From positions 124,001-188,000 of the forward strand of contig NZ_JASCQG010000002.1 of NCBI RefSeq assembly GCF_030005555.1: a stretch of DNA of 64,000 nt, given 5' to 3'. The translations under genes and the position numbers were made by a program. Source of the stretch: Empedobacter sedimenti. Lineage in GTDB: Bacteria > Bacteroidota > Bacteroidia > Flavobacteriales > Weeksellaceae. Position 1 is the stretch's first letter. Each line of letters opens with the position of its first letter. Shown here one piece after another: positions 3,927 through 14,110 of this stretch. A model generated the notes under the pieces. The model worked only from the letters and a program-made list of their open reading frames with translations, did no database searches and had not been told where the DNA came from.

Positions 3927-5072
3927 TTAAAACTCAATATCATCAGCGATAGTTCCGCCCATTTCGTTTTGAAATTTCTTTAAGTATTCGTCTTTCTTCT
4001 CGAATTGGTATGTAATCATCGTCGAATAATTTCCTGATCGTGTCCAATCTATAGCTTGAGCTTGGAAATCAACAATCCCAATTCCGTATTTATCCAGAAT
4101 ATATTGCGCGCCATCTTTTCCAACTTCTATTGCAGCATCTCTTTCGGCAGCTAAATCATAGAAGAAATGTTCGTCTGTTTTCAAACGTTCTAAGTTTGGA
4201 TTTGAAGCTGTATCAGCAGCAAAATTTCCGTTACTTCCTAATGTTGGGTGCTCGTCAATTTTTGTAAAATATTGGCTGTACAACGTCATCACAGTCATTT
4301 CTGTATCTTGTTCCATACGTTGATTCCAAATTAATCCAGCTTCGTCCCATTGCGGTTTATCAACTCCCAAAGCTTTCAAAACCTCAGTTTCAGGTACATT
4401 AGAACCAATTTTCACAACTCCTGCAGCATAATCGTACAAAGAAATTCCATGAATCGGCTCTAACAAAGGATTGTCTTTTGAATCTTCAAGCACTTTTGCA
4501 TCATGTTGTTGATACATTTGTTCTATTCCAATGTCCGAATTTTTATCTTCATATTTCTGAACAAATTTTTCTAATTGATCATTAATACGATCATACAAAG
4601 CCATTTTATTGTTTTCAGCTCTGTCATATAACTCTTGTTGATTTGGGGCATCCGTTAAAAAGGCTTCTGCATATTTCTCAAAATCATTTTCGATGTTTTT
4701 TATTTTATCATCAAAATATGCAATAGCATGTTGTTGTAAAGAATCATCGCCTTCGTAAGGTCCCATTTTACGCACTTGCTCTTTATATTTTTCAAGATCG
4801 CTTTTCCAAATTGAAATTGCTTTTTCTACTTTTTGACGATTATTAGAATTCAAAGCATTGTAAAAATTCTTATAATTGTCTACATAATGCTCATCAATTT
4901 CTGGAATGATGTTACTATAATCGATGTAATCTTCAAAATAAATCGGTTCTGCTTGATAAGAACTTTGAACAGGTTCTTCTCCTGAATTTGATGATTGATT
5001 TGTATTACTTTCTTGTAAATTTTCAATTGCTTCTTCTGCTTTATTGAAAATGTTTTTTAATTTTCCGAACAT
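3927..5072 (-). CDS. Helical protein of unknown function, last gene of SPFH/zinc-ribbon cassette
   Basis: I do not recognise a named domain. The 381 residues have no signal peptide or membrane helix. The N-terminus (MFGKLKNIFNKAEEAIENL) is amphipathic. A polar linker rich in N, S, Q and E (about 20-45) follows. The rest is charged, predicted mostly helical, with several YxxY and W residues. It is the last of six same-strand genes, 27 bp downstream of the 334-residue zinc-ribbon protein. The amphipathic start followed by a helical body loosely recalls membrane-surface proteins such as PspA, but I see no clear homology. Confidence 0.75.
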   Translation of the reverse strand: MFGKLKNIFNKAEEAIENLQESNTNQSSNSGEEPVQSSYQAEPIYFEDYIDYSNIIPEIDEHYVDNYKNFYNALNSNNRQKVEKAISIWKSDLEKYKEQVRKMGPYEGDDSLQQHAIAYFDDKIKNIENDFEKYAEAFLTDAPNQQELYDRAENNKMALYDRINDQLEKFVQKYEDKNSDIGIEQMYQQHDAKVLEDSKDNPLLEPIHGISLYDYAAGVVKIGSNVPETEVLKALGVDKPQWDEAGLIWNQRMEQDTEMTVMTLYSQYFTKIDEHPTLGSNGNFAADTASNPNLERLKTDEHFFYDLAAERDAAIEVGKDGAQYILDKYGIGIVDFQAQAIDWTRSGNYSTMITYQFEKKDEYLKKFQNEMGGTIADDIEF

Positions 5073-5099
5073 AGTTTTGAGTTTTTTGTTATTGATTTT

Positions 5100-6104
5100 T
5101 TATTGTTTTAATGCTTGATAATAGGTTTCTAAATCAGTCAGAATTGTAGTTTTTTCTACAGCTTCTTTCATGAAATTCATACTGAGTAATTCTTTGTTTA
5201 AAAGTGTTTCAAAAGCAAGTTGATCTATTTTTTCTAAATCATTTATAGTCGAATTTTGATTGATAAATTTTGTTCCAAATTGATCGATAATGTTTTGATG
5301 AAATGCTGATTCTGTTTCCGTTTCATGCTGAAAAGTTTGTACAAAATCACTGATTTCCCTTTTATAAACTTCTTTGTAAGAATCGCTTAATTCTGGAATT
5401 AGATTCTTTTTGATAAAGAATTGTTGTCTTGCATGTTTTTCATTGTTCAAAAATTTTTCGAAAACTGAATTTCCTGGAATTGGATAATCTAAAATCCCCG
5501 TTTTTTCTGTTGCTATTGCTCTTACCAAATCAGGTAAAAGTGACATTCTTGTTGATGGAACAAATGTATTTTGTGTTTGACAAAACTCACATGTGATATA
5601 AGCAGAAACAAAATAGACTTTCTCGATTTTTAAATTTGCACCACATTGTGTACAACAGAAATTGTTCTTCGTGATTTCGTATTCGTCTAATAATTTCTTG
5701 AGTTTATCTTCTGAACTTTCAACTTTTACTTGACTAAAAATATTCCCCAAAATTGAATCAATTTTATCATCAAAAACATCTAATAAATGCGAAGCTTCGT
5801 ATATTTTTGCATCGTGCGCATACATATAATCATGTGCTCTTACATCTTCATCAGAATAATGATACGAATATGATTTTTTCTCGATTTGCTCTTTAAAAAC
5901 CTCTTTGGCTTTAACTTTTAAGGTGTCGTATTGCCCTGTAATTCCTGCTTTGAAATGAATAAATCGAATTTCATCTTGATCATTTATTTGTTGACCAGCT
6001 TCTATCGTTTCAGTTTCTAATTCTAAAGCACGTTGTTCCAATTTCAATAAAAAGTTCTTGAAACGGAGAATTAAGTTCTCTAATTCTACAAAATTATAGT
6101 CCAT
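5100..6104 (-). CDS. Helical protein with one internal zinc ribbon
   Basis: This 334-residue protein has an N-terminal helical, probably coiled-coil half (about 1-145). One zinc ribbon follows with the ligand pattern CTQCGAN...CEFC (about 150-175), then a helical C-terminal region. No signal peptide or membrane helix is seen. Its ATG overlaps the stop of the upstream 82-residue gene in TAATG, which indicates translational coupling. The substrate or partner is unknown. The context points to a membrane-stress or protein-quality complex with the SPFH protein. Confidence 0.8.
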   Translation of the reverse strand: MDYNFVELENLILRFKNFLLKLEQRALELETETIEAGQQINDQDEIRFIHFKAGITGQYDTLKVKAKEVFKEQIEKKSYSYHYSDEDVRAHDYMYAHDAKIYEASHLLDVFDDKIDSILGNIFSQVKVESSEDKLKKLLDEYEITKNNFCCTQCGANLKIEKVYFVSAYITCEFCQTQNTFVPSTRMSLLPDLVRAIATEKTGILDYPIPGNSVFEKFLNNEKHARQQFFIKKNLIPELSDSYKEVYKREISDFVQTFQHETETESAFHQNIIDQFGTKFINQNSTINDLEKIDQLAFETLLNKELLSMNFMKEAVEKTTILTDLETYYQALKQ

Positions 6105-6352
6105 TATTTACCAGAATTATCAGTGGTTTTAAGATGTATTCCGTCGTCCAATTTTGTACTAATAAATTGGTGATTACAATACGCACATTTGGTAACGCCA
6201 TCTTGTTTTGCACGACCAGCACCGCAATTCGGACAATTTATAGTAGCAAGTTTAGATTGATTGTTGAGGAAGTCGCCTCCAAGATTTGTTTGACTTTCTG
6301 CCTGAATTTTCAGTTTTTCAATCAATGATAATTTTGGCTTTTCATCGTTCAT
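6104..6352 (-). CDS. Small zinc-ribbon protein
   Basis: This 82-residue protein has a short helical lead (about 1-35) and a zinc ribbon CPNCGAGRAKQDGVTKCAYC (about 40-59), the CxxC-CxxC type seen in rubredoxin-like and TFIIB-like ribbons. It overlaps the downstream gene start by TAATG. It follows the 66-residue membrane protein with 6 bp between. Function unknown; probably an assembly or interaction module of the cassette. Confidence 0.75.
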   Translation of the reverse strand: MNDEKPKLSLIEKLKIQAESQTNLGGDFLNNQSKLATINCPNCGAGRAKQDGVTKCAYCNHQFISTKLDDGIHLKTTDNSGK

Positions 6353-6358
6353 ATCATT

Positions 6359-6559
6359 TTAGTTTGATACTTTTTCTTGCTGATTTTTTCCAATGAAATA
6401 TAAAGCAGCACCAATAACAACGAACACAATCTTGATTCCCCACGCAACACCTTCGCCCCAATTGTAAATCCAAGCTAAAAGACGAGGAACGGCATTGAAA
6501 AAGTTTAATACGATTGCCAAAATTCCAAAAATAGCCATGTAAGTTCCGATAGTTTTCAT
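6359..6559 (-). CDS. Small two-helix membrane protein
   Basis: This 66-residue protein has two hydrophobic segments (about 5-28 and 40-58) and a polar C-terminus (GKNQQEKVSN). No catalytic motif is visible. It lies in the middle of the SPFH/zinc-ribbon cassette, 118 bp after the upstream zinc-ribbon gene, a gap that holds a large hairpin. It could anchor the soluble members at the membrane; this is inference from position only. Confidence 0.7.
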   Translation of the reverse strand: MKTIGTYMAIFGILAIVLNFFNAVPRLLAWIYNWGEGVAWGIKIVFVVIGAALYFIGKNQQEKVSN

Positions 6560-6602
6560 AATATTTAGTTTTTAGTGGTTATAGTTTATGTATTACTTTT
6601 TA

Positions 6603-6636
6603 AGTGATTGTTTCACAAAGTTGTGAAATAATCACT
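6603..6636. other. Large hairpin inside the cassette
   Basis: AGTGATT (6603-6609) plus TTTCACAA (6611-6618) pair with TTGTGAAA (6621-6628) plus AATCACT (6630-6636), about 16 bp with one G-T pair and a 2-nt tip. No T-run follows on the minus strand, so it is probably not a terminator of the operon. It may be an mRNA processing or stability element. Confidence 0.6.
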
Positions 6637-6677
6637 CAAAAAAACTCACTATTTTTAGCTAAATATTGTTGATTTTG

Positions 6678-7760
6678 TCATCGCATAATCATTAGTATCA
6701 ATACCACAATGATAAATGCTGCAAGTACTGCAAATACTATTTTTGTAGTGCTATAAGGTCTATCACCCGAAATGCTACCTGTCATTCCGTTGATGTAGAA
6801 CGTGTAGTTTTTGTTATTGTATAAGAAAGAGCTGACATAAATTGGGACTAAAATATGTTTGAACGTTATTCGATCAAAATCAGTGTACATATCAGTAATT
6901 CGTTGTTCATCGCCTCCTATATGTCTTTTTACACTTTCTCCTTCGTAATTAATAAATATAGTTTTAGCTTGTTCGAAGCTATCTTTTAGATCAACTTGAT
7001 ATTTTTCGGTAATAAAACCTTCTAAATATTTGTCGTCTATTTTTACAATAGCTTTTGTATTCCAACCATGTTGTATATTGCTTAGAATATCGCGTCGAAG
7101 AGTCTTGTTACCAGAAACTAAAACGTCATCATAAAAGTTTTCAATATTACCTTGTGCAAAAGACCAATCAATTCGTCTTTCTCTTCTTCTTTTATCTCCA
7201 CTACCAACTGTAACGTAATAAGCATCGCCACGTTCTCCTTTATAATTTGTGTGTGTTAAGGTATCAAAAGTCCAAAAAGGTAAATAAATTCCGTTTATGT
7301 TATCAGATTCTAAAATTGCTTTTTTGATGTTATCTGGTGCAAACCAAAAACCATTTACCCAATTTTTTAGAATATCATTTATTTTTGAATGATCAACTTT
7401 AAATGGTAATACGTAGCCAGGTTTTATGTAACGTTCTTCATGTATATTTTCTTCAACTAATGGCGATCCACAATATGGGCACATCATTGACCGAAGGTTT
7501 TCATCTACAGTTGGCGTAGCTTTACAATTATCACAAGTAATGACTTTTGTTGTATTAAATTCTTCTTTTTCGTAGGTTTTGATAAAGCTTTCAAAATCAA
7601 TTTCATTTAATACAAAATCTTCTTGTGTAATCTCTTGCGTGCTGTTGCAATAGGTACATACAAGCAAATTCGTACCCGCTTTGTAAACCATTGGAGCTCC
7701 GCAGGATTTACAAGAAGTTGAAGCGGTATTATTTGCTTTATAATTTTCTTCGGTAGCCAA
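6678..7760 (-). CDS. Double zinc-ribbon, C-terminal membrane-anchored protein (YdjG-like)
   Basis: Two zinc ribbons open the protein: CKSCGAPMVY...CTYC and CDNCKATPTV...CPYCGSP. A globular region of about 200 residues with IYLPFWTFD follows, then one membrane helix near the C-terminus (VFAVLAAFIIVVLILMI). The order matches Bacillus YdjG-type proteins that neighbour SPFH and PspA-like genes. The start is uncertain. The longest frame opens with TTG at 7817 and overlaps the upstream gene by 35 bp, with an odd sequence MVKLLLHYHKHN. There is no ATG before the first ribbon. I prefer the TTG at 7760, 22 bp after the upstream stop. Confidence 0.8.
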   Translation of the reverse strand: MATEENYKANNTASTSCKSCGAPMVYKAGTNLLVCTYCNSTQEITQEDFVLNEIDFESFIKTYEKEEFNTTKVITCDNCKATPTVDENLRSMMCPYCGSPLVEENIHEERYIKPGYVLPFKVDHSKINDILKNWVNGFWFAPDNIKKAILESDNINGIYLPFWTFDTLTHTNYKGERGDAYYVTVGSGDKRRRERRIDWSFAQGNIENFYDDVLVSGNKTLRRDILSNIQHGWNTKAIVKIDDKYLEGFITEKYQVDLKDSFEQAKTIFINYEGESVKRHIGGDEQRITDMYTDFDRITFKHILVPIYVSSFLYNNKNYTFYINGMTGSISGDRPYSTTKIVFAVLAAFIIVVLILMIMR

Positions 7761-7782
7761 GTTTTCTTGTTTTAGTTGAGAA

Positions 7783-8892
7783 TTATGCTTGTGGTAATGG
7801 AGGAGGAGTTTGACCAAATAATGAGGTTAATTCGCTCTGATTAGCAGCGTTTTCCCAATTTGCCATTCCTGCTTTCCACACTAATGTATCTTTTGTCAAT
7901 TGTCCGTTAGCAATCATTTGCTTTAAAGTCATTAAGTCAAACGGACCAGTTTGTTGACCATTATTTGCAACAAAAAATGAAACCGAAGTTGGTGTAATTG
8001 GAGGAGGAGTTTGATTTTGGCTTGATTGATTATTATTTTGAGCAAAACCTTGCGAAAACTGATTTACCATTGCAAAACCTGCACCCATTCCAACGCCAGC
8101 GCCAGCCAATCCAGATGGATTATTTGCAGCAGCTTCCATTGCTTTTGCAGCTTTTAATTGAGCAAATTTGTTCAAATCTATTTTATCCAAACGACTTAAT
8201 TCGAAGATTTCCTTCTTAATTTCTTCTGGCATTGATACATTTTCGATCAAAAATTTTGTTACATCAATTCCATATGCACCAAAATCATCTTTCATATAAT
8301 TGAAAATTGCTTCGGATAATTCATTCAAATTCGCAGCATAATTTTCAATTGGTAGATTTGCTTCTCCAATAGAATCTGTAAATCGAGTAACAATCACGCT
8401 TCGCAATTGCTCATTGATTTGATCTGTTGTAAAAGAACCTGTTGTACCAACAATTTCTTTGATAAATTTCCCCGCATCCGAAACTTTAAAAGTATATGTT
8501 CCAAAAGATCTAACTTCAATCATTCCAAATCGTGGATCGTTTAGAATAATCGGATTTTTTGTTCCCCAACGTTGATCCAGAAAAGTTTTTGTACTAACAA
8601 AATAAACTTCAGCTTTAAAAGGACTATCAAAACCATATTTCCAACCTTGTAAAGTCGATAAAATAGGAAGATTTTGAGTGTTTAAGGTATAAGTTCCAGG
8701 TGAAAAAACGTCTGCCAATTGTCCTTCGTTAATAAAAACAGCTAATTGCCCTTCGCGAACAACCAATTTTGCATTATTTTTTATTTCGTTTTGATAACGT
8801 TCAAAACGATGAACGATTGTATTTTGATTATTATCTAAAAACTCGATAATATCGATAAATTCACCTTTTATTTTTTTGAAAAAATCCATCAT
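7783..8892 (-). CDS. SPFH-domain (virion core protein-like) protein with C-terminal GYF-like domain
   Basis: Residues about 35-250 form an SPFH/band-7 type domain of the YdjI/virion-core family (LVVREGQLAVFINEGQLADVFSPGTYTL, quoted in pieces: VREGQLAVF and FSPGTYTLNT). A Gly/Ala-rich helix (GLAGAGVGMGAGFAMVNQ) follows, then a GYF_2/DUF4339-like domain near 305-350 (NNGQQTGPF...DTLVWKAGMANW), and a proline tail PPPLPQ. There is no signal peptide. Proteins of this family form membrane-associated oligomers. It is the first gene of the six-gene cassette and is divergent from the helicase at 9053. No convincing promoter box was seen in the 160-bp gap. Confidence 0.9.
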   Translation of the reverse strand: MMDFFKKIKGEFIDIIEFLDNNQNTIVHRFERYQNEIKNNAKLVVREGQLAVFINEGQLADVFSPGTYTLNTQNLPILSTLQGWKYGFDSPFKAEVYFVSTKTFLDQRWGTKNPIILNDPRFGMIEVRSFGTYTFKVSDAGKFIKEIVGTTGSFTTDQINEQLRSVIVTRFTDSIGEANLPIENYAANLNELSEAIFNYMKDDFGAYGIDVTKFLIENVSMPEEIKKEIFELSRLDKIDLNKFAQLKAAKAMEAAANNPSGLAGAGVGMGAGFAMVNQFSQGFAQNNNQSSQNQTPPPITPTSVSFFVANNGQQTGPFDLMTLKQMIANGQLTKDTLVWKAGMANWENAANQSELTSLFGQTPPPLPQA

Positions 8893-13738: not shown

Positions 13739-14110
13739 ATGAGAAGTTATAGAAATTTAGACATATGGCAAAAAAGTTTGGAAATTTTAAGACTGGTTTA
13801 TAATCTTTCTAATAAATTTCCAGAATCAGAAAAGTATGGATTAACTGTTCAAATAAAAAGAGCAGTTGTTTCAATTCTTTCAAATATCGCAGAAGGTTCT
13901 GGAAGAAATTCAAATCAGCAAATGATTAATTTTCTATCTATTTCAAAAGGTTCTGCTTTTGAAGTTGAAGCTCAATTAATAATAGCTTTTGAGTTGAATT
14001 ATATAACAGAATCAGAATTAAATGAAGCTTTAGAATTAATTGATCATTATTGTAGAATGAATCAAAATTTTCAAAACTATTTAACAAAGAAAAACAATGG
14101 AACAAAATAA
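13739..14110 (+). CDS. Four-helix-bundle protein (S23 / 23S rRNA intervening-sequence protein family)
   Basis: This 123-residue, all-helical protein has the TIGR02436-type pattern: YRNLDIWQKSLEILRLVY, then FPESEKYGLTVQIKRAVVSI, LSNIAEGSGRNS, and FLSISKGSAFEVEAQLIIA. The family was first found in insertions of 23S rRNA and includes Avd-like accessory proteins of retroelements; free-standing members have no proven role. It sits between purH and purD, flanked by related inverted repeats, and overlaps the purD start by 14 nt. No reverse transcriptase or rRNA is near. Purine function is unlikely; an inserted gene is more plausible. Confidence 0.88.
   Translation: MRSYRNLDIWQKSLEILRLVYNLSNKFPESEKYGLTVQIKRAVVSILSNIAEGSGRNSNQQMINFLSISKGSAFEVEAQLIIAFELNYITESELNEALELIDHYCRMNQNFQNYLTKKNNGTK

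Follow-up and report, generated by a model that had tools for sequence, protein, structure and literature searches.

The window, the 64,000-nucleotide stretch of Empedobacter sedimenti DNA that was analysed (about 32% GC; host genome 3.24 Mb), carries six open reading frames on the minus strand at positions 3927-8892, between purM and a helicase gene (Table 1). Each of the six is under purifying selection, with dN/dS values of 0.045-0.17 against congeners, and therefore none is a chance reading frame and all six are genes. Coordinates and domains agree with an earlier note on this DNA, which had described six same-strand reading frames at this place and an SPFH protein with a GYF tail; the latter matches PF13421 (E 1.5e-96) and, at its C-terminal end, GYF_2 (PF14237, E 1.9e-19). 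Pfam names only this SPFH protein and the 381-residue protein (DUF6620), and the other four give generic zinc-ribbon matches. Elsewhere in the window, a small helical protein (MRSYRNLDIWQKS...) is encoded at 13739-14110, downstream of purH; we take it to resemble the ‘four helix bundle’ family linked to 23S rRNA intervening sequences.

Table 1. Genes and other features of the purM/helicase site in the window, in the direction of transcription.
Feature	Position	Strand	Description
SPFH-A, module A gene 1, 369 aa	7783-8892	(-)	YdjI-type Band_7_1 and C-terminal GYF_2
ZnR-TM, module A gene 2	6678-7760 (to 7817 with the longer start)	(-)	Two zinc ribbons, conserved domain, C-terminal TM helix; YdjG-like
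SPFH-B deletion scar	6560-6677	(-)	SPFH-B upstream region (~6597-6672) fused to the last bases of SPFH-B
TM66, module B, 66 aa	6359-6559	(-)	Two TM helices; likely membrane anchor
Zn82, module B, 82 aa	6104-6352	(-)	Helix and one CxxC..CxxC ribbon
Zn334, module B, 334 aa	5100-6104	(-)	Coiled-coil helical bundle, zinc ribbon 148-185, C-terminal helices
DUF6620 protein, module B, 381 aa	3927-5072	(-)	N-terminal helical bundle and helical core
DUF6620 C-terminal tail GGTIADDIEF	3930-3959	(-)	D378 and F381 are invariant columns

We are highly confident that two independent SPFH modules make up the cassette, which some Empedobacter carry as an insertion between purM and the helicase gene. Congener G304 has SPFH-A and ZnR-TM only (module A), and G307 (E. 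tilapiae; our locus L063 is on the same contig) has only SPFH-B, TM66, Zn82, Zn334 and DUF6620 (module B), at the same purM/helicase site as the window. Congener G300 has all seven genes, module A and a complete module B, at this site. By locus, A alone is seen in L015, B alone in L016 and both together in L014. The site is empty in six congeners, where purM and the helicase gene are 135-398 bp apart without a cassette between them; one of the six, G299, is 98% identical at the helicase. In five further congeners purM was not found within 1.5 kb of the helicase gene. Two genomes, G317 and G645, carry modules A and B on different contigs. The earlier note had read the six genes as one set, but A and B stand apart almost everywhere in other genomes: apart from the window, G300 is the sole surveyed genome in which A adjoins B and the six genes co-occur, and there SPFH-B is kept as a seventh gene. 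A single conserved six-gene cassette is ruled out by the neighbourhoods with A alone and B alone, and the two modules are separate, widely inherited gene sets that were joined in one Empedobacter lineage.

Module A is a widespread YdjI/YdjG-like pair. In the SPFH tree, SPFH-A of the window groups with SPFH proteins that adjoin double-zinc-ribbon TM genes, outside the clade of module-B SPFHs, and in the ZnR-TM protein a PF18319 ribbon scores over the cut-off. Ten full-length ZnR-TM homologues were sampled in Flavobacteriales; all ten have an SPFH gene directly upstream and none has module B adjoining. Plasmid-borne full-length homologues occur in Vibrio, Paracoccus, Comamonas, Tsukamurella and Enterococcus, and the SPFH gene is again directly upstream in all five plasmid loci read in these other phyla. 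A GYF-like end is also present on the Vibrio and Paracoccus SPFHs, and in Enterococcus a TPM-domain gene follows the ZnR-TM homologue. Since most homologues show a short gap after the SPFH gene and not an overlap, the ZnR-TM gene of the window probably starts at the TTG at 7760 (360 aa) rather than at the TTG at 7817 (379 aa).

The surroundings of module A vary. In four Flavobacteriales genomes (L165, L166, L167, L169) it is followed by a gene for a calcineurin-like phosphoesterase, with a stop-start overlap, and then by a fatty acid desaturase gene, neighbours hinting at lipid or stress coupling. In Paracoccus (L040:1536-4966), a toxic-anion-resistance (TelA) gene and a DUF2927 gene are located 5' of module A on the same strand.

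The SPFH gene seen in the window is that of module A and not module B's own, which has been cleanly deleted. By blastn against L014 and L016, the window corresponds to G300 minus SPFH-B, with about 0.97 kb missing at the scar (Table 1). SPFH-B is intact at L014 8946-9929 and L016 8594-9577. The 5' SPFH-SHOCT gene of module B is thus absent here; the order Zn82-Zn334-DUF6620 and the DD[IV]xF tail are present, and the promoter-like region of module B is kept upstream of TM66. In G300, the DUF6620 gene (L014:11437-12390) is interrupted after 317 residues by an in-frame premature stop, beyond which the frame is still readable; this is either a real loss or a sequencing error.

These observations bear on what became of module B in the window. 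It could be a decaying remnant that is nonfunctional after the loss of its SPFH gene, in line with the deletion itself and with the stop in the related G300 gene, which would mean that the locus tolerates loss. We find this improbable, however, as all four B genes that are left are intact (dN/dS 0.10-0.17), and an SPFH-free DUF6620/Zn trio is known in distant Bacteroidota. Somewhat less improbable, but still unlikely, is that the six genes form one functional complex here, in which SPFH-A replaced a redundant SPFH-B and the TM protein of module A anchors the joint assembly. SPFH-A and SPFH-B are co-directional, adjacent paralogues with 41% identity, pairwise comparisons involving the window show purifying selection on the module B genes, and a single PF13421 protein is left in the genome, all of which would suit a joint complex. 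Yet a promoter-like region of its own is still present upstream of module B, SPFH-A has a GYF domain where SPFH-B has SHOCT, and the only other genome with A beside B, G300, retains SPFH-B.

Module B is a conserved Bacteroidota operon that is undescribed and unnamed in the literature searched. The earlier note had called the smaller members of the set undescribed, and this stands insofar as no name for them was found in that literature. The 381-residue protein belongs to the existing family DUF6620, although it too is unnamed in the papers searched. A scan of 84,980 species genomes for Zn334, made with a narrower alignment since the broad Zn334 alignment has no conserved stretch, yielded 55 loci in Flavobacterium, Chitinophaga, Pedobacter, Mucilaginibacter, Sphingobacterium, Capnocytophaga, Riemerella and Empedobacter. 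The order SPFH-B, Zn82, Zn334, DUF6620 is intact on one strand in 44 of them, DUF6620 lies at most 1.5 kb 3' of Zn334 in 51 (median gap about 25 nt), and in most Zn82 immediately precedes Zn334; none of the 55 has module A's ZnR-TM gene next to module B. The module is scarce: 12 of 396 Flavobacteriales genomes have it, and DUF6620 was found in 10 of 395 genomes from the phylum. In the tree, the module-B SPFHs group in a single 100/100 clade (n=16) apart from the SPFH of the window, with one divergent G317 sequence falling outside. Their C-terminal end is a SHOCT domain, which scores over the cut-off in Flavobacterium, and the four Cys of the Zn334 ribbon are invariant in 29-30 homologues.

Several neighbours of module B are optional, among them small two-TM proteins (TM66, YcxB, DUF805 and DUF4870-like) and TPR proteins. 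TM66 has dN/dS of 0.15-0.17, and a homologue (E 1.4e-21) lies beside zinc-ribbon and DUF6620 genes in G645 (L058 6629-6829). The B operons of Flavobacterium have no adjacent TM gene, and therefore membrane anchoring of module B is not general. YcxB-like, DUF805 and other small membrane proteins are inserted in B operons at L057:6644-7144 and L055:9376-10735, and these may be interchangeable anchors like TM66. In many Flavobacterium loci, a DUF2314 and ankyrin protein of 248-249 aa is encoded about 100 nt after DUF6620 (L070:9986-10729).

A search of plasmids for module B returned one distant Zn334 homologue in Actinomyces only, and no relatives of Zn334 were found in viral contigs, nor of DUF6620 in phage records. 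The presence or absence of the genes at one site among congeners, and the caspase-like gene that adjoins the operon in one Flavobacterium, might be taken as signs of an anti-phage or conflict system in a variable locus. This is very unlikely: PADLOC gave no convincing model match (weak generic zinc-ribbon and coiled-coil matches only, E 4e-5 or worse), the operon contains no nuclease, NTPase or pore-forming toxin domain, relatives are absent from the viral contigs and the caspase context was seen once. The caspase-domain protein itself (PF00656; Flavobacterium limi, L020:5019-6428 and L094:4375-5784) ends in EESDDLPF and thereby resembles the C-terminal tip of SSB, an uncommon feature among caspases.

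The 381-residue protein matches PF20325 (DUF6620) with E 3.4e-27 and 95.5 bits against a gathering score of 27, and all 27 members of the DUF6620 alignment match this family. NCBIfam NF047958 (LIC11966 surface protein domain) also matches (E 2.9e-11), covering only the N-terminal helical bundle at 50-174; the label ‘surface protein’ is misleading because the window protein starts with a helix and not with a lipoprotein signal. In Capnocytophaga, the N-terminal bundle is a separate protein of 180-182 aa (L066:9095-9643, L068:9084-9632, L065:8258-8800), with full-length DUF6620 proteins encoded further downstream in L066 and L068.

Most of 57 DUF6620 proteins end in the consensus GGN[IV]ADD[IV]xF. 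Six columns are invariant in 27 diverse sequences; the Asp at -4 (D378) and the final Phe (F381) are among them and rank 1 of 184 occupied columns for conservation. As a DNA pattern that left out Leu codons and the TAG stop, DD[IV/M]xF-stop terminates reading frames of >50 residues in DUF6620 genes only, in 17 genomes. The likeliest reading is that the tail is a docking peptide with its receptor within module B, for which Zn334 would be the first candidate. Loci without SPFH (L021, L022, L062) keep the DUF6620 tail together with Zn334 and Zn82, and in Actinomyces the gene after the Zn334 homologue encodes an unrelated protein of low complexity whose last residues are DIASDIEF; this one Actinomyces locus and the few Bacteroidota loci point to Zn334 as the putative tail reader.

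With its acidic pair, aliphatic residue and C-terminal Phe, the tail resembles the bacterial SSB tip (the SSB of this genome ends in EEGEDDLPF), and zinc ribbons can bind nucleic acids. The tail could thus recruit genome-maintenance enzymes, with module B acting at DNA and not at the membrane. We consider this very improbable, since the penultimate residue is never Pro in the 57 DUF6620s, unlike in SSB, the DUF6620 model has no OB fold, the tail is limited to one gene family and its linkage to SPFH is fixed.

Structure prediction is consistent with helical proteins in both cases. The AlphaFold2 model of DUF6620 (pLDDT 74, pTM 0.45) is all-helical, and that of Zn334 (pLDDT 80, pTM 0.59) is helical with its ribbon. 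With these two models, Foldseek returned no match at E <= 0.001 and VIA-align only generic helical bundles; an ESCRT-III/PspA-like hairpin was sought for Zn334, and in this Foldseek-limited look generic helical bundles were ranked. A sequence search of solved structures gave only chance coiled-coil and generic ribbon matches.

As best explanation overall we propose two modules, the loss of SPFH-B and a scaffold with docked DUF6620, a combination for and against which the case is about evenly balanced. In both modules, SPFH ring or cage scaffolds would assemble at the inner face of the cytoplasmic membrane. The TM protein would be the anchor in module A. In module B, the SPFH would oligomerize through SHOCT (compare PMC3581485) and be anchored, where present, by the small two-TM protein, with Zn82 and Zn334 as adaptors. 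DUF6620, as client or effector, would be retained through its C-terminal DD[IV]xF peptide, for which Zn334 is the most likely docking partner. SPFH-A may substitute for the lost SPFH-B in the window. This SPFH scaffold and tail-docking mechanism of module B is a guess by analogy, to which we give rather less than even credence. More doubtful still is the wider proposal that Bacteroidota possess a second class of SPFH scaffold that does not depend on PspA, where a coiled-coil zinc-ribbon adaptor would recognize the invariant GGxxADD[IV]xF docking peptide at the C-terminus of DUF6620 and so load this protein, and that in the lineage of the window a foreign SPFH, that of module A, took over after deletion of the native one. 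The cargo of bacterial SPFH membrane scaffolds is mostly unknown, and module B is of interest here as a compact, conserved operon for which a short docking motif is predicted. The window, where SPFH-B was lost in nature and SPFH-A was kept next to it, also bears on whether SPFH scaffolds are interchangeable.

Among known systems, SPFH-SHOCT proteins (PF13421 and PF09851) share the architecture of SPFH-B, and PF13421 is the domain with which SHOCT is fused most frequently (PMC3581485). The fixed downstream Zn82-Zn334-DUF6620 genes and the tail distinguish module B, as these are not described in the papers found. Beyond the SPFH, module B is unrelated to pspA-ydjGHI of B. subtilis. Module A differs from the latter in that SPFH-A ends in GYF_2 and YdjI in a zinc ribbon, and the cassette has neither PspA nor a TPM protein (YdjH). 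A PspA or TPM protein hidden in the cassette was considered and gave no match among the six genes, so that the absence of PspA from the set, as claimed in the earlier note, holds, though one PspA is encoded elsewhere in the genome (G000:C10:34742-35413). The SPFH YdjI of B. subtilis is soluble and needs the membrane proteins YdjG/H (PMC8581546), and SPFH-A is likewise a PF13421 protein without a TM segment of its own. YdjG consists of two zinc ribbons, a YpeB-related domain and a TM segment (Ravi et al., PMC11237479), and the partner of SPFH-A has two zinc ribbons, a conserved domain and a C-terminal TM helix, a likeness that rests on this described architecture and on alignment with Enterococcus, Vibrio and other homologues, not on YdjG itself. 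In Enterococcus, the ZnR-TM homologue lies between the SPFH gene and a TPM-domain gene, as in ydjGHI. The resemblance to PspA/Ydj neighbourhoods that the earlier note had seen in the SPFH and zinc-ribbon proteins is thus upheld by module A, which has the architecture of YdjG (PMC11237479).
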